From positions 1 through 38,893 of the forward strand of contig NZ_JANHDK010000008.1 of NCBI RefSeq assembly GCF_024494725.1: DNA of 38,893 nt, given 5' to 3'. The notes under the pieces are model-generated. The model did no database searches. It saw nothing but the letters and a program-made list of their open reading frames with translations, and was not told the origin of the DNA. Positions 19,765-37,332 of the stretch are shown here, one piece after another. Origin of the DNA: Haloplanus ruber (lineage in GTDB: Archaea; Halobacteriota; Halobacteria; Halobacteriales; Haloferacaceae). Numbering within the stretch: the first letter of the stretch is position 1; every line of letters starts with the position of its first letter. A program made the position numbers and the translations under genes.

Positions 19765-19968
19765 TTGAAATTAGTCGATGAACTGGATGAGGAGATACAT
19801 CTTCAGATGGATCGGTTGGAAAGCGCTTCCAGAGAGGATGAGCCTGAGATCCGTGAAGGCTTGAAAGAGTTGTATCGGGAACGGCGCAGGGAGAAGCGTA
19901 GCTATTGGCAGGATAGGGAGGACTGGCTTGACCGGAAGATAGTATCAGTACATCACAAAGACGGTTAG
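19765..19968 (+). CDS. Short charged coiled-coil protein, possibly truncated by the ISH3-type element
   Basis: This is 67 residues from a TTG start; no ATG is available near the beginning. The sequence is helical and highly charged (LYRERRREKRSYWQDREDW). It ends VHHKDG at a TAG whose last base abuts the apparent start of the ISH3-family element, so the original C-terminus may be lost. A C10 tract directly precedes it, so the true start may lie upstream in another frame. No family is recognised. Confidence 0.4.
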   Translation: MKLVDELDEEIHLQMDRLESASREDEPEIREGLKELYRERRREKRSYWQDREDWLDRKIVSVHHKDG

Positions 19969-19992
19969 TTGAGACGTCTGCTTGCTGAAGGT

Positions 19993-21159
19993 GTGTCTAA
20001 AACCAAGCAAGCAGACAGTGTGATTCACGAGGACCAGCTTCTTAACTTTCTCGTCAACCGCCTTGACGAGGAAGTTCCGCTCTCGTTAGCTAATAACGCT
20101 GAAATTACTGCTGAGGACATCTATGAGGTCCTCGTCGGCGCTTGCGCCGACGGGACCTCTGTCTCTACGCTCTGTGCGTCGAGCCAGAATACACCCACTG
20201 CGAACACGATCCTCTACCATCTTCGGACGAAGTTCGAGCCGGAACGGCTCGAACGAGTCGCTAACACGCTCCTTCGGAAGGATATCGATGAACTGCTTCC
20301 CAAGCAGGTGGAGGTCTGCGCAGACCTCCACCTGCGACCCTACTACGGTGACGAAGCCGATACAGACGGTCTCTATCACTCGGTAGCGAAGCGTGGAACC
20401 ACCGCGTTCCACGCCTACGCCACACTCTACGCGCGTGTGACGAACAAACGCTACACGCTGGCGGTGCGCCGTCTCGAAGACGGCGACACCGCCAGCAGCG
20501 TCCTCGCTGAGTTCCTCGGTATTCTCGACGGCCTTGACACCGAGATCAAGGCCGTCTACCTTGATCGCGGATTCTACGACAGCAAGTGTCTCATGCTGCT
20601 TCAGGCGCACAACTACGCGTACGTGATCCCGATCATTCGGTGGGGGAAGACGATTCAGCAAGAGCTCTCGGAAGGGTGGAGTCGCGTCATTCAGCATGAT
20701 CTGACAGGGAAACTCGACGGTCACAGCTGGACCGTCGAGTTTCCCGTCTACATCGACTGTACGTACCTAAACGGGAAGTATGACGAGAACGGTGTGGCGC
20801 GTCACGGCTACGCCGCTGACGCGCCGTTCATCGACTCACCACGCGACGCTCGATACCACTACACCAAGCGGTTCGGTATCGAGTCGAGCTATCGATTGTT
20901 TGAACAAGCGATAGCGACAACAACCACACGAGATCCAACGGTACGGCTGCTGTACGTCGTGGTGAGTCTGCTATTACAGAACGTCTGGCGGTACCTTCAC
21001 TACGAGTATGTGGCGACGCCGCGCCGAGGCGGGCGTCGCCTCTGGTGGTGGCCGTACAAGGAGTTCGTCAATATGGTTCGACGAGCTGCGTGGACGGCCC
21101 TCGCGGTGCGTCGGGCCGTCCCCGCGAATCGGCCACCTGACGACCGATTCCACCGCTAA
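19993..21159 (+). CDS. ISH3-family transposase
   Basis: The product is 388 residues from GTG 19993, which gives the usual SKTKQADSVIHEDQLLNFL start; a TTG at 19969 is a less likely longer choice. The N-terminal helical domain (NNAEITAEDIYEVLVGACADGTS) is followed by the DDE core with AVYLDRGFYDSKCL (about 183-196) and a C-terminal KRFGIESSYRLFEQA block (about 288-302), which carries the catalytic Glu. Length and motifs fit an intact haloarchaeal ISH3-type enzyme. I could not find matching terminal inverted repeats by eye. A GTCGGCGG/CCGCCGAC hairpin follows the gene at about 21204-21226. Confidence 0.88.
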   Translation: MSKTKQADSVIHEDQLLNFLVNRLDEEVPLSLANNAEITAEDIYEVLVGACADGTSVSTLCASSQNTPTANTILYHLRTKFEPERLERVANTLLRKDIDELLPKQVEVCADLHLRPYYGDEADTDGLYHSVAKRGTTAFHAYATLYARVTNKRYTLAVRRLEDGDTASSVLAEFLGILDGLDTEIKAVYLDRGFYDSKCLMLLQAHNYAYVIPIIRWGKTIQQELSEGWSRVIQHDLTGKLDGHSWTVEFPVYIDCTYLNGKYDENGVARHGYAADAPFIDSPRDARYHYTKRFGIESSYRLFEQAIATTTTRDPTVRLLYVVVSLLLQNVWRYLHYEYVATPRRGGRRLWWWPYKEFVNMVRRAAWTALAVRRAVPANRPPDDRFHR

Positions 21160-21652
21160 CCACCGACCGAGCAAGCCAGCAAAGTGAGTGGCAACGCTGT
21201 CGCGTCGGCGGCTGACCGCCGCCGACAGCGACAGCTCTCCGTCGATCCGTCCGTAATCATCTCATCGAGACCATCAGTACAACCGCTTCGAGACAGAACT
21301 CAGGCCGCAGAAACAGCTAGCTGTGGATGCTTTGTGAGGTACTGAGTATTGAGGGAAGAGTTGGCGAAGATCGATGAGTCGGAGAAGTTCTTCTAAGGGT
21401 AACTCGCTGTCCAGATTGTTGGTTTAATATTCGCCTCCGAAAGACTTAGTAAGCGGACGTACGGGTTGCTTTTCGGCTATGCTTGGTGTCAAAGGTGTGG
21501 CCTCGGCACTCATAGGGCTCCTCACATATCGTAGTCGAGGATAGCAGAGCGTCAACTGTGGTTATGATTATTGCGCTAATTACGCCCACTCGGTGGCACG
21601 ACAAACCTGCAACGGACGTTTTTTGGTTTGGTCACGCGACATCCAATATCAT

Positions 21653-26138: not shown

Positions 26139-27512
26139 TCAAAACTTGTCGAGAGTCATGTCTCCATCAATCCCGTCAAACAACTCTTGTAGGCGACTAT
26201 CTCCTTGGAGTACATCACGCACGATGTCTGCACGAATTGAGAACTCGTACTCATAGTAACTCCCACCTTTCGGGCCTTTGTTTTGCTCGCGAACGTCAAG
26301 AAATCCTTTCAGCGTCAACTGGGACAAGCGGTTATGAATAGTGCGGTCGGTACGGACATCCGCGTCGATACGCTTTGCAGCCAACACATACCGTTCGTAG
26401 ATCCGATTTCGCTTAGCTGGGAGCGCACTCTCCTGCTCGAGCAACAATAGTCCGTACAGTGTTAATTTTGACTGTGTGGGGAGTCGTCCTAGTTCCTCTC
26501 TCACTTTATCCCGCTCAACTGCTTCATCCGCACGACGAACATGCTCTTCAGTGATACAGCCACTTTCCTCGTCACGCGCCATATCACCGGCCTTGTACAA
26601 CAGCTTCAGCGCTTGCCGGGCGCTCCCAGAATCTTGCGCCGCGAACGCTGCACATAACGGGATCACATCATCTTCAAGAATATCTGATGATAACTCGAAC
26701 GCTCCATTATCAAGTTGCGATGCAGTCGTATCGTGGAATGCTTCGGATGCTCGTTGCTTCAAGATGTTCCCGAGTTCATTCGCATCATACGGTGGGAAAT
26801 GAATCTCCTCGTCGCACAGAGAGTCTTTCACCCGTGCAGAAAGGTTATCTCGGAAAGTGAAATCGTTCGAGATCCCGATAACCCCGACAGACGTATCTCT
26901 GACATTCCCATTATCGTTAGCGCGAGGAAGTTTGTATAGGATGTCGTCATCATTTCCGATAGCATCGATCTCGTCTAAAACTACTAGGCAATGCGTAGCG
27001 TCGAGTTTTTCGAGTTCCTCGAATAGCATCGTGTATATCATCCCAGATGGATATCCTGTCGGCTTGATCTGCTCCTCCGGCTCTCGAAACTCGTTTATCA
27101 GATTCGCAGCTACCTGGTAGCTCGAGTTCAGCGATTTACAATTCAATTCGGCAAAGTGTACATCAACGTCATCTAGATTCTGTTGATCCTCGTCTAGCCG
27201 CTCAATAATCATTCGAGATGAGAGCGTCTTTCCCACGCCTGTCTGCCCATATAGAAACAGGTTTTTCGGTGGTGCTCCGTTGATCACGGGTTTCAGAGCC
27301 GACTGGTACTGCTTGAGTTCGTTATCTCGCTCGATTAACTGATCAGGCCGATACCCGTCTCGAAGCACTGCTTCATCAGCAAAAATTGTAGAATCGGGTT
27401 TGAACCGTTCCAGCCCCATTATTACTCGACTTGTAACCACGGCGTTACTTAAAACCACACCTTCATGGGTCTCATCAGTTTCATCTGTGTACACCATGCC
27501 TTCATGAGACAT
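26139..27512 (-). CDS. orc1/cdc6: Orc1/Cdc6 replication initiator
   Basis: The product is 457 residues. FKPDSTIFADEAVLRDGYRPDQLIERD is the typical N-terminal region, GQTGVGKT (89-96) is Walker A, VVLDEID (about 176-182) is Walker B of the AAA+ domain, and residues about 350-440 form the winged-helix DNA-binding domain. It recognises origin boxes and recruits the replicative helicase. The repeats upstream (27571-27969) are the obvious targets. The N-terminus may really begin at ATG 27419 (MGLERFKPD): a TTTTAAGT box lies about 30 bp ahead of it, and the extra 31 residues are not family-typical. It is divergent from the 28175 gene across the origin. Confidence 0.92.
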   Translation of the reverse strand: MSHEGMVYTDETDETHEGVVLSNAVVTSRVIMGLERFKPDSTIFADEAVLRDGYRPDQLIERDNELKQYQSALKPVINGAPPKNLFLYGQTGVGKTLSSRMIIERLDEDQQNLDDVDVHFAELNCKSLNSSYQVAANLINEFREPEEQIKPTGYPSGMIYTMLFEELEKLDATHCLVVLDEIDAIGNDDDILYKLPRANDNGNVRDTSVGVIGISNDFTFRDNLSARVKDSLCDEEIHFPPYDANELGNILKQRASEAFHDTTASQLDNGAFELSSDILEDDVIPLCAAFAAQDSGSARQALKLLYKAGDMARDEESGCITEEHVRRADEAVERDKVREELGRLPTQSKLTLYGLLLLEQESALPAKRNRIYERYVLAAKRIDADVRTDRTIHNRLSQLTLKGFLDVREQNKGPKGGSYYEYEFSIRADIVRDVLQGDSRLQELFDGIDGDMTLDKF

Positions 27513-27570
27513 AGATACACCACACAGATACGGTAGTATTCACGAACAAAACTAGACAGAGCTGACGAAC

Positions 27571-27969
27571 CCCCTCCCCCCACTTTTCACGAGAGTTCCG
27601 CGGTAAAGACGGTGGGGGAGGGCCGAGATCACTTTACTAGCACGCAAACCTTTATACCACATCGCTCGGAACCATATCCGCACGGCTACTGTAGCGGTTA
27701 ATTGTGCTGTAGAAGAGTGCTAAGAGAGTCACAGACATCGTTTCACTACCTCGTCTCTAGCAGCAACTCTCGTGAAAAATGGGGGGAGGGGGATTGTAGA
27801 CAGTACGACCACGTTGGTATGTTCGTACAGAGAAACGAGAGCTGGGGCAACTCTCGTGAAAAGTGGGGTGGGTGGTAGCAGACAATCGTGTGCTTGGTGA
27901 ACTGTAGGTCTCGATTTTAGTTGTGTGCTGGATATATTCGAGAACTCTCGTGAAAAGTGGGGGGTGGGG
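27571..27969. other. Plasmid replication origin with four origin-recognition-box-like repeats
   Basis: A 27-bp repeat, consensus AACTCTCGTGAAAAGTGGGG followed by a G-rich tail, occurs at 27765-27791, 27849-27875 and 27943-27969 in one orientation, and at 27571-27597 inverted. Copies differ at only one to four bases. The set flanks an A/T-richer stretch (about 27630-27720) that could unwind. This one-inverted, several-direct layout next to orc1/cdc6 is the standard haloarchaeal origin plan. The G-tract end is the usual G-string of such boxes. Confidence 0.88.
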
Positions 27970-28070
27970 TAGTAATCAGGACAGACGGAACTCGCGAAAC
28001 GACCTCTGTCACCCCACACCCAGACAATACTGGGGACCTTGGAAAGATCCTCTGAGGACAAGTTCGAACC

Positions 28071-28114
28071 ATTAACCAACAAACTGGCGCTTCTGCTGCT
28101 ATCTGTTGGTTAAT
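28071..28114. repeat. Palindrome ATTAACCAACA-N22-TGTTGGTTAAT (copy B)
   Basis: Perfect 11-bp arms lie at 28071-28081 and 28104-28114. The spacer and about 22 bp beyond the right arm are shared with copy C at 31678. It lies between the origin boxes and the 28175 gene. Confidence 0.7.
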
Positions 28115-30852: not shown

Positions 30853-31452
30853 TCATGCCTCCTCGAAATCGAGTTTCTCCTTCGCCGACCGGACCCGGTC
30901 GCTGACCGTCTGCGGGCTGGCCTTCCGATCATCAGCCCACGAAGACTGCCGAGTCGAGTAGAGCGTCTGCGTCATCCAGTAGTCCAAGGTCTCAGCGGGT
31001 GACTGGAGTTCGTTCGCCAGCACGGCGAGCTCGACCGCCGCAATCTGCCGGCCGATGTCGAGCGCGGTCAGCTCCTTTTGGTAGTCGTTGATCGCCCGCC
31101 AGCCGTCTTCGATCTTGAACTCCAAGTTGATGACGCACTTCCCATCCGCCCCGTAGACGAATCCCACATTCGCAAACCGTTCTCCGCCGATCTGGCGACG
31201 GGTGTGGATAGCGAAGTGAGGAACCGAGTCGTCTCGTACCTCCTCCACAATGGGGTCGTCGTCGAACTTAGCCGCCAGGTCGCGGGCCTGGGTCCACGCA
31301 CTCCAGAACTGCTCGTCCTCCTGGAAGATGGGGACGCCGTCGTCGCCCTCGGGCGCATACCGGCTGACCGGCGGAGTGTCGCACTCCAAGAGATCAAGCC
31401 CGATCTCCCCGGCCTCACGGACCAGCTGAATTTTCTGATCTACTTCAGTCAT
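30853..31452 (-). CDS. HTH-containing plasmid protein, unknown function
   Basis: The product is 199 residues. The C-terminal 35 residues (SSWADDRKASPQTVSDRVRSAKEKL) have a helix-turn-helix pattern like the last DNA-binding helix pair of sigma-type or LuxR-type domains. The middle (about 85-135) looks beta-rich with FVYGADGKCVINLEF. It is the first gene of an operon with the 29941 gene. Its start region is duplicated in tandem (35 bp), which creates a 12-codon upstream ORF ending in ATGA over this gene's ATG. A regulatory role is possible but not shown. Confidence 0.6.
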   Translation of the reverse strand: MTEVDQKIQLVREAGEIGLDLLECDTPPVSRYAPEGDDGVPIFQEDEQFWSAWTQARDLAAKFDDDPIVEEVRDDSVPHFAIHTRRQIGGERFANVGFVYGADGKCVINLEFKIEDGWRAINDYQKELTALDIGRQIAAVELAVLANELQSPAETLDYWMTQTLYSTRQSSWADDRKASPQTVSDRVRSAKEKLDFEEA

Positions 31453-31495
31453 ACACGTAACTGAATTTTCTGATCTACTTCAGTCATACACGTAA
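31426..31495. repeat. Perfect 35-bp tandem duplication over a start codon
   Basis: Copy 1 spans 31426-31460 and copy 2 spans 31461-31495, without a mismatch. It contains the ATG and first nine codons of the 30853 gene. Confidence 0.95.
31449..31487 (-). CDS. Upstream mini-ORF of 12 codons
   Basis: The peptide is MTEVDQKIQLRV. Its first nine codons duplicate those of the downstream gene, and its TGA overlaps that gene's ATG (ATGA, 31449-31452). A TTTTTAT box at 31513-31519 lies about 30 bp before this ATG, so a leaderless mRNA would begin at the mini-ORF and the real gene would depend on re-initiation. Confidence 0.45.
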   Translation of the reverse strand: MTEVDQKIQLRV

Positions 31496-31677: not shown

Positions 31678-31721
31678 ATTAACCAACAGACTGGCGCTTC
31701 TGCTGGTATCTGTTGGTTAAT
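31678..31721. repeat. Palindrome ATTAACCAACA-N22-TGTTGGTTAAT (copy C)
   Basis: The arms are at 31678-31688 and 31711-31721. Copy C and copy B agree over about 65 bp, including the spacer and the following GGTGAGCTC.ATCACGTA, and diverge after that. Confidence 0.7.
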
Positions 31722-31750
31722 AACGGTGAGCTCCATCACGTAGATAGTGC

Positions 31751-31920
31751 TCAGATAAGGTCGATAAGTACTCCAGTTTCAAAATCATCGAGCGCTGTAA
31801 CCTCGTGGCGCTTCAGCCCGTCGACAAGCAAGAACGCATCCGCGTAGACGTCGAGATCGGGTTTTCCGGGACATCATTTAACCGCTCAAGGAGATTGTAC
31901 CAGCTGACCCGAAGCGACAT
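31751..31920 (-). pseudogene. Deleted and frameshifted copy of the 28175-type origin-linked gene
   Basis: Reading from ATG 31920 gives MSLRVSWYNLLERLNDVP, close to the start of the 28175 product (MSFRVTWDNLLDNVEELP). It then jumps, in a different frame, to PDLDVYADAFLLVDGLKRHEV, matching the helical segment near residue 130 of that protein, and stops at 31751. About 100 internal codons and the whole C-terminal half are missing. Confidence 0.75.
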
Positions 31921-32163
31921 GTTCGTATTGAGACCGTTGGACGCTAAATGCTTGAGGTTGCTTGTAGAACTCACAGCTGTATCCGAGTGCGTGGATGCTG
32001 ATTGGATGAATTCGTAGGAGGGCTCCCACGTGGAACCCACCCTAATTGCCAGTTACCCGCTTTAGAGGTGTGTAAACCGCCTGAATACGGACACCGGGGC
32101 AAAATAACAGCAATTGTATGTATGTCTGACGCTCGGCGTGAGTATTAAGACGGAGGCAAGCGC
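31921..32163. other. Intergenic region, no gene seen
   Basis: GCATTTAG on the minus strand (about 31945) sits about 29 bp before the pseudogene ATG and is its relic promoter. TATTAA at 32143-32148 is a possible + strand promoter for the structured leader. Nothing else is supported. Confidence 0.35.
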
Positions 32164-32459
32164 AACATCGCAGTATGCACGGCTAGGCGATGTTTAGAAA
32201 GGGGGGAAGTTCCCCTGTTGGCAGCAGGGGCCGCTTGGGAAGGGACAGGATGGCACCTGTCCGAGGAATCGTCCTATTCCTCATTACTTCCGAAGTGGTC
32301 TTAATGGTTGCGGTGGTGAGAGTCATCTCCGGCTTTCGCCGTTAGCACTACCTGCTGCCTCTGAAACGGCCGATTATCCGATTTCGGCCGTAGCGTCGAG
32401 CACGTGCGCGGAGAGCGCACTATGCAGGACCACCCGGCTCATGGAGGTGTGCCAGCGGC
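32164..32459 (+). ncRNA. Hairpin-rich leader or independent structured RNA ahead of the DUF5817-type gene
   Basis: At least eight perfect stems in 260 nt: AACATCGC/GCGATGTT (32164-32194), CCCCTG/CAGGGG (32212-32230), GGACAGG/CCTGTCC (32243-32262), GAGGAAT/ATTCCTC (32263-32282), GGTGGTG/CACTACC (32312-32352, one wobble pair, enclosing CGGC-TTTC-GCCG), ACGGCCGA/TCGGCCGT (32366-32391) and GTGCGC/GCGCAC (32404-32420). A Shine-Dalgarno GGAGGTG follows at 32443-32449, ten bases before the GTG start. It is either a cis-acting leader or a separate RNA. I cannot match it to a known riboswitch. Confidence 0.55.
32443..32449 (+). promoter_or_regulatory. Shine-Dalgarno site GGAGGTG
   Basis: It is complementary to the 3' end of haloarchaeal 16S rRNA and lies ten bases ahead of the GTG at 32460, which settles that start and implies a leadered mRNA. 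Confidence 0.65.
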
Positions 32460-35400
32460 GTGAGTCGCTTCGCTGTCGTTGGTTGTTCCAACTGTAGCCA
32501 ACACTGGGTCATCGAGGATGCGGTCAGTAGTGGCGCTGCTAACGCTCGTGAGTGCCCCCGGTGTGGGAGTCAGCATTCAGATGGCCAGTTGCGACGTCGA
32601 ACAAGAGCGGACACATGGGAGAATGCTGTTGAGCAACGGGCGGCGCTTCTCGCGAACACTCGTAACGCTGGCGCTGAGTTCGACGAGGTTGGCCACTACA
32701 CTGATCTTGAAGACGAGTGGGACCGCGACCTCGTCGGCCAACCACTCGGCGTACAGGTGCTTACAGGTGCCTTCACAGACGATCAGCACCTCGACACGGG
32801 AGAGCAAGAGACACCCAACAAAACCGATCAGAGCTCTCGTCAGCTTGGCGATCTCCGCTGTGATGAGGACGCGGGTCTCTGGGTGGTTCAGCAGTACCCG
32901 GCCGTGTCGTCTGGGACAGTACGCCTCGACAAAGAGAGCCGACCGGGTGAACTTTGGCAGCGTCTTGTTTCCGTCCTCGAAGCCGATATTGCGCTCGCCG
33001 TGCGCGAACTTGTCGGTGGTGTCGCTGATGGGGCCGCCTGGCAGACGCTTGAATCGATTATCGACGATCAGCTCGGGACAGTTGACCGAGAGGCGCTTCC
33101 AGACGCAGAGAGCCTCAACGGGTCGATCGTTGCGTCGACGCTGTTGAGCTTGTGTAAAGACGTCGAGTCCGAGCAGCATCAGCAGGCGCTCGAACTGCTC
33201 GAGAGCTTTGGGAGCGCAGAGTTCGGCCCGCTTGGCATCGGGTTCCCTGGTGAGATCGAAGATGTTCGCCGAGTTGTGAAGCCGTTGCTCGCAGCCGCAG
33301 CCCATACGCCGACGCTCACCGTGCGGATCGATGAGTCATTCCGGGAGATCGGCCACGCCGACCAACGCCGGCAGATGGTCCAGCTGCTCAGTTGGCTTGG
33401 CCACGGTGTGGACGTCAGGATCGTGTTTGAGTCGTCTATCTGGATGCGGCGCTTCGCTTGGAGTTACGATCCGGAGATCGATGTCGACGAACTGGATGGG
33501 AACGTCCCGGACGTGGCAGCGTTCGATGTGAGTTCTCAATGCGATACAGGCCAGCGCGCTCACGGAACTGTCGACGACCACGTTGCGGCCGCGTGTGGGG
33601 CGCTTGAGACGGACGGTGAGGTTGTCGCAACCCTTGAGCGTATCGGCGCGGAAGCCGGCCAGACAGCCGGCTACGAGGCGCTCTATGAGGCTGCGCCGTA
33701 CGATGACCCCGACCAGTCTCGGAACAACGTCGCGTACCACCTGCGCCAGCTTCGCGAACACGAACTCGTGACGGATCGTATCGCGACCAGCGACGGGAGC
33801 AAAGTCGCAATTCGCCCGGCTGGAGTGCGTTTCCTCGAAGAAATCGGCCGATCTGGAACGCGACAAAAACCCCTTCAGAATTTTGTGAGTCGGACCGGAA
33901 AATCTGCCGACAATATGGAGTCTAGACCCGCGCACACACGTGAGGGGGGGACCGGCTGGAGCCGCGACCGCCTCCCAGCGCTCCATACCATTCAACCGCT
34001 ACCTCGCTCTACGTATCAGGCCGCCGTCGCGGCGACCCCCGAGAATGGCGTCGCAACTGTCGATGCGGCGGTTTCCGAGTGGGAGGATCGGGCAGCTCCT
34101 CGGCGCTACATGGACTGGGACAATGATCGGCTCGCTGTGGCCGCCGAAGTCGACAATCCGATGCAGTGGGCAGTCTGTACTGCTCGGTCGTTGGGTGACG
34201 AGTTTGTCTGGGACAATCTGCTAACTGATGAGCGACTCGACGAGAATGGTGAGTTCCGCCGACTGCTCCAAGAGGCACCCAATATCCTACAGAACAGTGC
34301 GTGTCTCGGGTGGATTGCTGAAGAAGACGAACTCGTCGACGATGTCGATGGGTTTGGTGACCGCATACAAGCTGTTCTCGAGGAGATTTGCGAGATGACG
34401 CGGGACATGACTCACGGCGAGTACCGCGAGTACAACTCTCGAACGGCGTTTCGGACGAAGATTCTCACTGAGTCACTCGGCGTGATCGGCGTAATGACCC
34501 GGTTACTGGACTTCGCCGGCGTGGACATCCTCCGAATCGGTCGGATGCCCCGGTTCAAGAGCGATTTTGCCGATGAGAAGCTCTCAGCTATCGCGAAGTT
34601 CGTTGGAATCAACTCGGCGATTGCATCGAAATACGGGATGGCGTCGGTGTTTCGGCAACTGTTTGAGAATCGTGACGAGGTCCTCCGGTGGTCACTAGAT
34701 GTCGATGTCAACGCCGCAGAGCCGTTCGGTGAGCTCATCGGCTCGTGGTGTCTGTTTGGTGATTACGGCGACCGCCAGGACGTGTTCGCTGAGAAGCTTC
34801 GATCCAACGTCTCGCCGAGGGACATCCGGGATGACGCCCCCGAGATCGGTGTCCGCGTCCCCGTCCAGACGTCGACGAGTCGGGCCCAGTACCGGGATCT
34901 GCTTGAGGAAGCTCTCGAGGCGAAGAATCTGCTCACAACTCCAGAGGCGGTATCGGTGCTTCACGGACTGTGTCGGTCACCACTCGCAATCGCGAACGGC
35001 GTCGCCCGAGCGCTAGAGCCGGAAGCCGAGACGCGACATATCCGGTCTGTAGAGCTCCGGCGTATCATCGCAGCACTGTCCCCAGAGCAGGTACTCCGAG
35101 ATGCTTCGTCAACGCCGCGAAAGGCCCTTGTGGCACTCGCGGGCGCTGAAGAATTCCTGACGCAGTCTGTACTCGCCGAGAGAGCCGGTGTGTCGGCCCG
35201 CTCGCTTCGTGACCACCTCCCTGACCTCGTTGATGCTGGAATCGTCGCGGAGGTCGACGCTGGCTACCGACTCCAGCTGTCGTTTGCGGAGACGGATCGA
35301 GATGACGGAGAACTGCCTGAGCGGTACCAGGATATCTACCCGCGATGGGTGAGCGATCCGACCGTCAGCAACGACGTCCACGCTGCGGCCGGAGCGTTAC

Positions 35401-35669
35401 GGACAGCCCGGGAGCATCACGGGCCAGACGGACCAATCTCACCAGAGGAAGCCGGGTTCGCTGGCGATGTCTTGCTGGAACTCACAGAGCCGTGGCCGTT
35501 ACTCGATGAGGTGCTGCCAGCGCTGTGGGCAGTGACTACGAGAGCGTGTTATCGAGAGGACGCTGCTGTCGCTGGTGGTGTCCTTGTTGAATGTGAGACT
35601 GAGGTAATGGGGAGACGCCCACGCCAGTTGAGCCTCCAAGAAGCAACTACTGGGGAACTTGTTGGATGA
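32460..35669 (+). CDS. Large DUF5817-type zinc-ribbon and winged-helix plasmid protein
   Basis: The product is 1069 residues. Residues 1-90 form a zinc ribbon (C9, C12, C32, C35) with VVGCSNCSQHWVI and a helical tail, as in DUF5817 proteins of haloarchaea. Residues about 270-355 look like an alpha/beta domain (TLTVRIDESF, VDVRIVFES). A winged-helix unit lies at about 395-470 (NNVAYHLRQLREHELV) and another at about 895-945 (LAERAGVSARSLRDHLPDLVDAGIV). No ATPase motif is seen. Such large multi-HTH proteins are carried by many haloarchaeal plasmids, with unknown function; a DNA-binding role in maintenance or regulation is the natural guess. It has a GTG start with a good Shine-Dalgarno and a structured leader. 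Confidence 0.75.
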   Translation: MSRFAVVGCSNCSQHWVIEDAVSSGAANARECPRCGSQHSDGQLRRRTRADTWENAVEQRAALLANTRNAGAEFDEVGHYTDLEDEWDRDLVGQPLGVQVLTGAFTDDQHLDTGEQETPNKTDQSSRQLGDLRCDEDAGLWVVQQYPAVSSGTVRLDKESRPGELWQRLVSVLEADIALAVRELVGGVADGAAWQTLESIIDDQLGTVDREALPDAESLNGSIVASTLLSLCKDVESEQHQQALELLESFGSAEFGPLGIGFPGEIEDVRRVVKPLLAAAAHTPTLTVRIDESFREIGHADQRRQMVQLLSWLGHGVDVRIVFESSIWMRRFAWSYDPEIDVDELDGNVPDVAAFDVSSQCDTGQRAHGTVDDHVAAACGALETDGEVVATLERIGAEAGQTAGYEALYEAAPYDDPDQSRNNVAYHLRQLREHELVTDRIATSDGSKVAIRPAGVRFLEEIGRSGTRQKPLQNFVSRTGKSADNMESRPAHTREGGTGWSRDRLPALHTIQPLPRSTYQAAVAATPENGVATVDAAVSEWEDRAAPRRYMDWDNDRLAVAAEVDNPMQWAVCTARSLGDEFVWDNLLTDERLDENGEFRRLLQEAPNILQNSACLGWIAEEDELVDDVDGFGDRIQAVLEEICEMTRDMTHGEYREYNSRTAFRTKILTESLGVIGVMTRLLDFAGVDILRIGRMPRFKSDFADEKLSAIAKFVGINSAIASKYGMASVFRQLFENRDEVLRWSLDVDVNAAEPFGELIGSWCLFGDYGDRQDVFAEKLRSNVSPRDIRDDAPEIGVRVPVQTSTSRAQYRDLLEEALEAKNLLTTPEAVSVLHGLCRSPLAIANGVARALEPEAETRHIRSVELRRIIAALSPEQVLRDASSTPRKALVALAGAEEFLTQSVLAERAGVSARSLRDHLPDLVDAGIVAEVDAGYRLQLSFAETDRDDGELPERYQDIYPRWVSDPTVSNDVHAAAGALRTAREHHGPDGPISPEEAGFAGDVLLELTEPWPLLDEVLPALWAVTTRACYREDAAVAGGVLVECETEVMGRRPRQLSLQEATTGELVG

Positions 35670-36900: not shown

Positions 36901-37332
36901 ATGATCGAGATTTCTGATTCGCTTCGTTCTGTGTTTAGTGCTCAAATCGAAGAACGTGACGGGTCATATATCGTGGATGTCCCCGCGAATGAAATCGAAC
37001 ACGACGCGCTTGCTGCCGACGAAACGTATCGCGTCGCGATCTTGAAATCAGAATCCTCGACAAGCAAGAAGACTCAGGAAGAGCAACCCCAATCGGCTGC
37101 GCAAGAACCAACTCCGATGTCGGACGGTCCTCCCGTAGACGAAGGTGAAGTCCGCGACGTGACGATCGAGACGACTGGTGATCAAGGTGACGGCATTGCG
37201 AAGGTTGAACGCGGCTACGTCGTGATCGTCCCCGGCGGACAACCAGGTGATGAGCCGTCGGTCGAAATCGAGCAAGTCAAAGAGAACGTCGCGTTTGCCA
37301 GCATCGTCGAACCCGACTCACGGGCTCTGTAA
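36901..37332 (+). CDS. TRAM-domain protein
   Basis: The product is 143 residues. The C-terminal 65 residues (VDEGEVRDVTIETTGDQGDGIAKVERGYVVIVPG and onwards) are a TRAM domain, an OB-type RNA-binding fold common in haloarchaeal small proteins that act as RNA chaperones. The N-terminal 60 residues form a separate small beta-rich domain, joined by a Gln/Pro-rich linker. Haloarchaeal TRAM proteins are often the domain alone, so the extra N-terminal domain is notable. A TTTAGATA box near 36865 suits a short-leader mRNA. Confidence 0.82.
   Translation: MIEISDSLRSVFSAQIEERDGSYIVDVPANEIEHDALAADETYRVAILKSESSTSKKTQEEQPQSAAQEPTPMSDGPPVDEGEVRDVTIETTGDQGDGIAKVERGYVVIVPGGQPGDEPSVEIEQVKENVAFASIVEPDSRAL

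Follow-up and report, generated by a model that had tools for sequence, protein, structure and literature searches.

The predicted RepH-type replication gene of the haloarchaeal plasmid analyzed here is preceded by a folded RNA leader, within which a promoter-like sequence on the opposite strand appears to be aimed into a variable hairpin loop. The best explanation for this arrangement, and in our judgment a probable one, is that a counter-transcribed RNA controls the synthesis of RepH and hence the copy number and incompatibility of the plasmid.

The replication gene and its plasmid

The window, that is, the whole stretch of DNA that was analyzed, is a complete contig of 38,893 bp, one of nine contigs in its genome. 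The gene at 32460-35669 (+ strand) encodes a protein of 1069 aa that carries a DUF5817 zinc ribbon at its N-terminus (residues 4-65; Pfam PF19134, E 5e-16) and winged-helix matches as well (Pfam search), and tblastn against 53 plasmid records joined the body of the protein to pHV2 of Haloferax volcanii (1e-65), with further matches to RepH of Halobacterium pHS1/pNRC (1e-11) and to the 'replication protein H' of Haloarcula marismortui (7e-21), at identities of about 24-30%. Because of these Pfam matches and homologies, we assign the gene to the RepH type of plasmid replication genes (repH hereafter). A PDB sequence search with RepH gave no match, and DUF5817 was present in 391 of 391 haloarchaeal genomes; among the best matches listed, the ORFs that carry it are mostly a few hundred residues long. 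The same contig holds a ParA-like gene (1988-2929) and an Orc1/Cdc6 gene (26139-27512); four copies of AACTCTCGTGAAAAnTGGGG, one of them inverted, adjoin the latter at 27565-27972, an array that we take to resemble an ORB array and that, since it sits beside orc1, probably marks a second origin, of the Orc1 type. Other features of the window recorded here in their own right are a hairpin, TTAACCAACAnACTGGCGCTTCTGCTGnTATCTGTTGGTTAA, read by eye in two copies about 3.6 kb apart (28072-28114 and 31678-31723), a 35-nt perfect tandem duplication (31426-31495) at the start of the minus-strand gene 30853-31452, and an ISH3-like insertion sequence (at about 19945-21350) that has perfect palindromes in its coding region, two of them with 16-bp arms, and folds better than nearly all other DNA of the window on both strands (150-nt z-scores to -8.9).

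A structured leader upstream of repH

The first-pass annotation had described eight or so perfect stems in series at 32164-32459 (296 nt), ending before a strong Shine-Dalgarno site, as a structured leader of the DUF5817-type gene. A strict rule (perfect stems of 6-8 bp, loops of 3-16 nt, no overlaps) leaves six of them (32164-32194, 32212-32230, 32243-32262, 32263-32282, 32366-32391, and 32404-32420); that is, the series is real and eight was a slight overcount. Shuffled sequences had 0.76 +/- 0.81 such stems and reached six in 0 of 500 cases, and only 1 of 245 other windows of the plasmid did so. The RNA fold of the segment (-142.4 kcal/mol, z -5.39) was equaled by none of 200 shuffles, and the z-score of 32160-32459 was -7.4 on the + strand vs. 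-3.6 on the - strand, a + strand value reached by 1 of 194 background windows, which lies inside the ISH3-like element. Hence, the folding of the 285-nt stretch before repH is beyond chance and the structure is real. The Shine-Dalgarno-like GGAGGTG is read directly at 32443-32449, followed by the GTG at 32460, and the description of a structured leader is borne out by the fold, by covariation, and by conserved promoter sequence upstream. Rfam gave no match in the window above the gathering cut-off (best sub-threshold matches on 31900-32700, E 2 and 7.7), and a tRNA/tmRNA search found none.

The promoter sequence in question is a conserved TATA box, TATTAAG (32143-32149, + strand), centered 29 nt before the ATG at 32175, a spacing of 27-29 nt in all 11 measured leaders (one per distinct type plus five of the G034 family, the pNG leaders being left out). 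Upstream of it lies an operator-like motif, GTCTGAC (32124-32130, + strand), that recurs in relatives: GTCAGAC/GTCTGAC or TCAGACG is found about 10-45 nt upstream of a TATA-like site in window-type loci, L070, L071, L076, L114, pNG300/pNG400/pHsi55, L053 (TCAGACG only), and the pHS1 repH, with GTCTGAC also in G121; it is absent upstream in L004, L005, L046, L112, L113, and L118-L121. In the pHS1 repH of Halobacterium (L122), GTCAGAC and TTTAAG stand about 500 nt upstream of the annotated start, which suggests that the classical pNRC100-type repH may also have a long leader. The ATG itself opens a predicted leaderless ORF of three codons, ATG CAC GGC TAG (32175-32186, + strand), and an ATG with a stop at codon 4 is present in all members read, including ATGCTCGGCTAA (L070) and ATGCAGAGCTAA (L114), as well as ATGCAGAGCTAG (G121) and ATGCACGGCTAA (G034 family). 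The elements BRE CGAAA and TATA TTWT have been proposed for haloarchaeal promoters, and leaderless transcripts make up 72% of the protein-coding transcripts of Haloferax, according to PMC4983044. Given this prevalence and the TATA spacing, the ATG at 32175 would be the natural transcription start, which yields a predicted repH mRNA leader of 285 nt (32175-32459, + strand), and since the conserved promoter sits just upstream, the segment 32164-32459 is very probably part of the repH mRNA. The hairpin at 32164-32194, which straddles the predicted start (~32175) and which, by eye, has lost its pairing in L070 and part of it in L071, is for these reasons unlikely to be one of the stems of the leader RNA.

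Downstream of the short ORF, the + strand fold begins with hairpin P4 (32201-32215), whose GGGG/CCCC stem is kept in 14 of 14 aligned rows and takes the form GGGGACATCCCC in L114 and G121. Helix P1 (32220-32228 with 32351-32359), which is paired in 100% of cells and has GC/GU changes in its 3' side, closes a junction of two arms. The first, P2 (32229-32242 with 32287-32300), has both-side changes in 10 of 13 pairs, contributed by L004/L005, and bears the hairpins P2a (32243-32262; both-side changes in 6 of 7 pairs) and P2b (32263-32282; 3 of 5 pairs), the latter with a variable apical loop at 32270-32275. The second, P3 (32307-32346), is paired in 91.1% of cells for its outer 4 pairs and in 96.4% for its inner 10 pairs. 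Two perfect hairpins follow, ACGGCCGA/TCGGCCGT with an 8-bp stem (32366-32391) and GTGCGC/GCGCAC with a 6-bp stem (32404-32420), both conserved in sequence in the close set only. An alternative hairpin, CCCCTGnTGGCAGCAGGGG (32212-32230, + strand), is excluded when P4 and P1 form. That is, of the segments 32201-32204 (1), 32212-32217 (2), 32220-32230 (3), and 32351-32359 (4), either 1 pairs with 2 and 3 with 4 (32201-32204:32212-32215 plus 32220-32228:32351-32359), or 2 pairs with 3 (32212-32217:32225-32230). Segments 2 and 3 are invariant in the 14 rows apart from one letter (the n of the alternative hairpin), as a switch would require, and the helices may act as one; no U-run terminator was seen after segment 4. 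Pairing over a long distance, between 32180-32190 and the start of repH, was considered and dropped, being broken in L004/L005.

Conservation of the leader RNA

The leader is kept in relatives from Halorubrum, the Halobacterium plasmid pKBTZ03_58, and one viral contig. In a structure-blind alignment of 11 relatives, 99.8% of cells were paired and 5 pairs had changed on both sides, against a control value of 1.0 +/- 0.8. The covariance model built from these eleven found L004 and L005, which had not been used in building it (55 and 48 bits), and the leader of L070 was also found by covariance model (133 bits). With these three added and the alignment (A4, 14 rows) fitted to the covariance model, core pairs were kept in 97.8% of cells and 24 of 52 pairs showed both-side changes, against 5.4 +/- 1.9 by shuffling and 3-6 with the partners slid; the pair counts exclude L010 (C-terminal piece only), L069 (contig end), and one-locus duplicates drawn from two collections. 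Many one-side changes turn GC into GU and some GU pairs are invariant, so the pairing survives only in RNA of the + strand. Since such exchanges hold an RNA helix and break a DNA or opposite-strand helix, the selected object is the RNA of the + strand, and the fold of the leader is well supported.

In genome searches, model R2 gave 7 matches in 372 genomes of the order, confined to the genus of the window and one other, and model R1 gave 10 at E<=0.1 in 170 genomes of the family, including a weak 23-bit part match in G379. Upstream of homologous genes, where the first-pass annotation would have related structure recur, the outcome is divided: model R2 had no match at 34 of 34 more distant RepH/DUF5817 loci, and the wider module described below recurs in other genera. 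A strong leader fold was not found at several other DUF5817-RepH genes (L046, L113, and L119), and leaders of other RepHs had + strand z-scores of +0.15 to -4.8, mostly unremarkable because the 5% point of the background is -4.0; some of these leaders are structured, with different sequence. Short DNA matches in G306, G134, and G070 fell in apparent coding stretches (L019 and L021 read) and were taken as chance. Two further observations concern recombination and other upstream regions: locus L071 (G072, contig C26) joins a window-type leader and DUF5817 to a RepH body about 10-26% identical to that of the window, with a recombination joint near residue 90, and about 200 nt upstream of the Halorubrum repH without DUF5817 (L078, L037, L038, and L080) are almost unchanged between diverged flanks, a candidate for another leader or origin family.

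A promoter-like site on the opposite strand

The + strand sequence that adjoins arm P2 on its 3' side is CTTAATGGTTGC. Read on the - strand, it becomes GCAACCATTAAG (32300-32311), in which two letters separate a BRE-like GnAA from a TATA box. With both strands of the 38.9-kb window counted, this site is the only occurrence of the form GnAAnnMTTAAG, a form that was itself taken from these leaders; L003, with TTTTAAT there, misses the exact form. BRE/TATA-like equivalents on the - strand, such as GGAAAGCTATAAG and GGAAAGTATTAAG, are present in 11 of 11 measured leaders, four of which are out of sample; it is important to note that the pattern was derived from the first leaders and that the out-of-sample set is L184-L187 only, from one protein family. 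The gene bodies behind the 11 leaders are of four kinds (window-type RepH, the diverged RepH of L071, a 242-aa protein, and a 392-aa protein), and L114 precedes a further RepH. At 25-29 nt from the center of the antisense TATA box, an RNA would be predicted to start at 32274-32278 (- strand), on the 3' edge of the variable P2b loop, and in all 11 leaders the predicted start falls at the apical hairpin. The - strand of 32175-32278 has a modest fold (z -2.7), as a short antisense RNA could. Judged by sequence alone, therefore, a conserved promoter-like site appears to lie inside the leader on the opposite strand, aimed into the P2b loop.

The module in other genera

The same antisense geometry, with the arm built differently, is seen in L004, L070, L071, a plasmid leader of Salinigranum rubrum (L114), and G121, where the following gene encodes a 242-aa coiled-coil protein and not RepH. 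At the order level, a pattern search found G034, which has the sense TATA box, ATGCACGGCTAA, two hairpins (the first of them GGGGG/CCCCC), and, where the layout calls for it on the - strand, GGAAAGCTATAAG, a clearer promoter sequence in which the RNA letters CTTAA are gone. The 392-aa gene that follows had no Pfam match, and relatives of its protein occur on haloarchaeal plasmids (7 records); neither this gene nor that of G121 had a Pfam DUF5817 match, and the replication role that we assign by homology to the RepH members is not extended to them.

For four plasmids of the 392-aa family (L184-L187), the layout was forecast beforehand and was found in 4 of 4: each has a sense TATA box and the 3-codon ORF, a hairpin of the GGGG/CCCC type and another whose tip differs from leader to leader, and a promoter-like site on the - strand. 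These are the four best of five relatives, the fifth (L188; 29% identical, with 85 nt between annotated genes) having been left out. In L185, the antisense TATA box has changed from CTATAAG to TATTAAG, such that the TATA box is kept and the RNA letters are altered, a change predicted by a promoter and not by an RNA junction motif. As a separate observation, a TRAM-domain gene follows both the repH of the window (36901-37332) and the 392-aa-gene relative of Haladaptatus (L188, 2147-2587).

Beyond the covariance family, the module thus comprises seven leaders (L114, G121, G034, and L184-L187) and, more loosely, the pNG group. The pattern TATGCnnnGCTAR-GGGG-CCCC was matched in 11 of 170 family genomes, at 16 listed places (three of which are overlapping readings of one), vs. 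6 for the reversed control, and in 4 of 108 order genomes vs. 5 control matches; since the control rate comes near the yield outside the family, a pattern match alone is weak and only matches with promoter and layout were kept. In the viral_contigs collection, 38 stretches had the pattern; one (L123) is the contig of L070, and none of the other 37 had the full layout by eye.

Variable loops in a constrained leader

Among ten close loci (L030 standing for the L015 locus, and the distant L004, L005, L023, and L070 being left out), the p-distance was 0.158 at 4-fold degenerate repH sites. Outside P2b and J3/1, the leader gave 0.03 and hence evolves about 5 times slower; for the stretch P1-P2a the value was 0.008. 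For the P2b loop, in contrast, it was 0.306 (0.361 when indels are counted), and for the junction 32341-32351 it was 0.283. When 4-fold sites were drawn at random, about 2% of the sets were as variable as either spot, the P2b loop having been chosen after the fact. Since so few sets were as variable, the rate of change in the P2b loop is no lower than that of neutral sites and perhaps higher. Lack of constraint would also account for the variability of the loop, and the junction lies outside the predicted antisense RNA, such that an antisense reading leaves its variability unexplained. In an independent RepH group, that of Haloarcula pNG300, pNG400, and pHsi55, the leaders hardly differ (mean column identity 94% over the aligned stretch), but pNG300 and pNG400, both plasmids of one strain, have entirely different tips on one hairpin. 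Co-resident copies also differ in P2b (L006/L009; L002/L023/L069); however, so do 43 of 45 loop pairs overall, and since nearly all pairs differ, co-residency was set aside as evidence.

Discussion

In the mechanism that we favor, the repH mRNA would begin with the 3-codon leaderless ORF, followed by P4 and by the P1-closed junction with its arms P2 (P2a and P2b) and P3. From the - strand promoter inside the leader, a short counter-transcribed RNA would run from the P2b loop back over P2a, P1, and P4 to the 5' end of the leader. Its own 5' end would be complementary to the P2b loop, where pairing would begin; the 5' half of the leader would thereby be trapped, and less RepH would be made. Because both RNAs come from the same plasmid, more copies would mean more antisense RNA and less RepH, and the variable P2b loop would set incompatibility. 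The output step may be translation (e.g., via the exclusive helices) or transcript processing, and the 3-codon ORF might bring a ribosome onto the 5' end and so adjust the fold, or it may serve only as a start-site motif. We infer the two transcripts, their pairing, the inhibition, and the output step from this arrangement.

Alternatively, RepH might bind the leader through its DUF5817 zinc ribbon and repress its own synthesis, which would need no antisense RNA. This reading is kept alive by L071, where the window-type leader precedes a protein 53-54% identical to the RepH of the window over the first ~90 residues and about 10-26% elsewhere; since leader and zinc ribbon are conserved there and the RepH body is not, the two may travel together. 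The conserved loop letters TGGCA and the conserved 3-way junction would suit a protein-binding site as well. However, L070 pairs a window-type leader with an L005-like N-terminus, the wider module also stands before genes without a Pfam DUF5817 match (G034 and G121), and autoregulation leaves both the conserved BRE/TATA sequence of the - strand and the TATA change in L185 unexplained. Hence, we regard it as unlikely.

Origins beside rep genes are common, and the dyads could be DNA elements of a replication origin (binding sites or initiation hairpins) rather than RNA, a reading with which the adjoining rep gene and the palindrome CCCCTGnTGGCAGCAGGGG, invariant apart from n, agree. The GC/GU exchanges and invariant GU pairs, which keep pairing in RNA only, the better folding of the + strand, and the ORB-like array that the plasmid already has beside orc1 make this decidedly improbable, although the leader may still overlap with an origin. 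It is very improbable that the segment is an independent, trans-acting RNA gene merely upstream of repH: such a gene could share the upstream promoter, and the fold is strong and compact, but the distance to the start codon is close and nearly constant in 14 members, and no copy lacks a downstream gene, save L069 at a contig end. Finally, the small-molecule riboswitch that the first-pass annotation had raised finds no support and is the least probable reading of all, since its multi-helix junction, invariant unpaired letters, and mutually exclusive helices are set against the lack of an Rfam match, occurrence only before plasmid-type genes (of several unrelated types), a fold that differs among module members, and an opposite-strand promoter-like site aimed at a variable apical loop.

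Returning to control by a counter-transcribed RNA, we advance only tentatively, as possible but somewhat short of probable, the broader view that the module is a widespread cassette of haloarchaeal plasmids, consisting of a regulated sense promoter, a 3-codon ORF at the 5' end, a switching junction, and an antisense RNA from a fast-changing loop, and shuffled before unrelated genes (RepH, 392-aa, and 242-aa). It would be the first known haloarchaeal antisense system for copy number and incompatibility, and translation of the 3-codon ORF might gate it.

Known systems offer close parallels. In CopA/CopT of the IncFII plasmid R1 and in Inc RNA/repZ of IncI-alpha, a folded leader of the rep mRNA with a short leader ORF is met by a counter-transcribed RNA that is recognized through an apical loop. 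The leader described here resembles them in its fold before a rep gene and its short ORF, and, by prediction, in the counter-transcribed RNA and the loop recognition; unlike them, it has archaeal BRE/TATA promoters, a 3-codon leaderless ORF, and a different fold, it is known here from sequence, and its RepH has no bacterial Rep family among its strong Pfam matches. In pT181 and pIP501, the rep leader is attenuated by RNAI/RNAIII through the helices 1:2 plus 3:4 vs. 2:3, with the antisense RNA covering segments 1-3. The same exclusive helices, with a predicted antisense RNA over segments 1-3, are found in the present rep leader, whereas the U-run terminator was not seen here after segment 4. 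Within Archaea, a counter-transcript may occur in the Sulfolobus element pSSVx. An antisense RNA is also on record in the repH-bearing halovirus phiH (PMC6210493, citing Stolt and Zillig 1993), a haloarchaeal replicon with repH like the one in which we predict such an RNA here; the passages on it in PMC6210493 draw no link to a structured repH leader. The RepHs of pHV2, pNRC100/pHS1, pNG, ChaoS9, and pR1SE are homologous to that of the window, and their leaders, when searched, gave no match to model R2, some being structured with other sequence.

Judged by title and abstract, the papers listed on archaeal antisense plasmid control and on haloarchaeal incompatibility and copy number included none on such a system, nor on copy-number or incompatibility control in haloarchaeal RepH plasmids. 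The leader, which matches no Rfam family, would be an archaeal counterpart of the known antisense control of rep genes. Our results suggest that plasmids of Archaea may hold down their copy number in a way similar to that of some bacterial plasmids. If true, Haloferax and Halorubrum vectors with an adjustable copy number could follow, and Archaea would share the antisense logic of bacterial plasmids while using their own promoter machinery.
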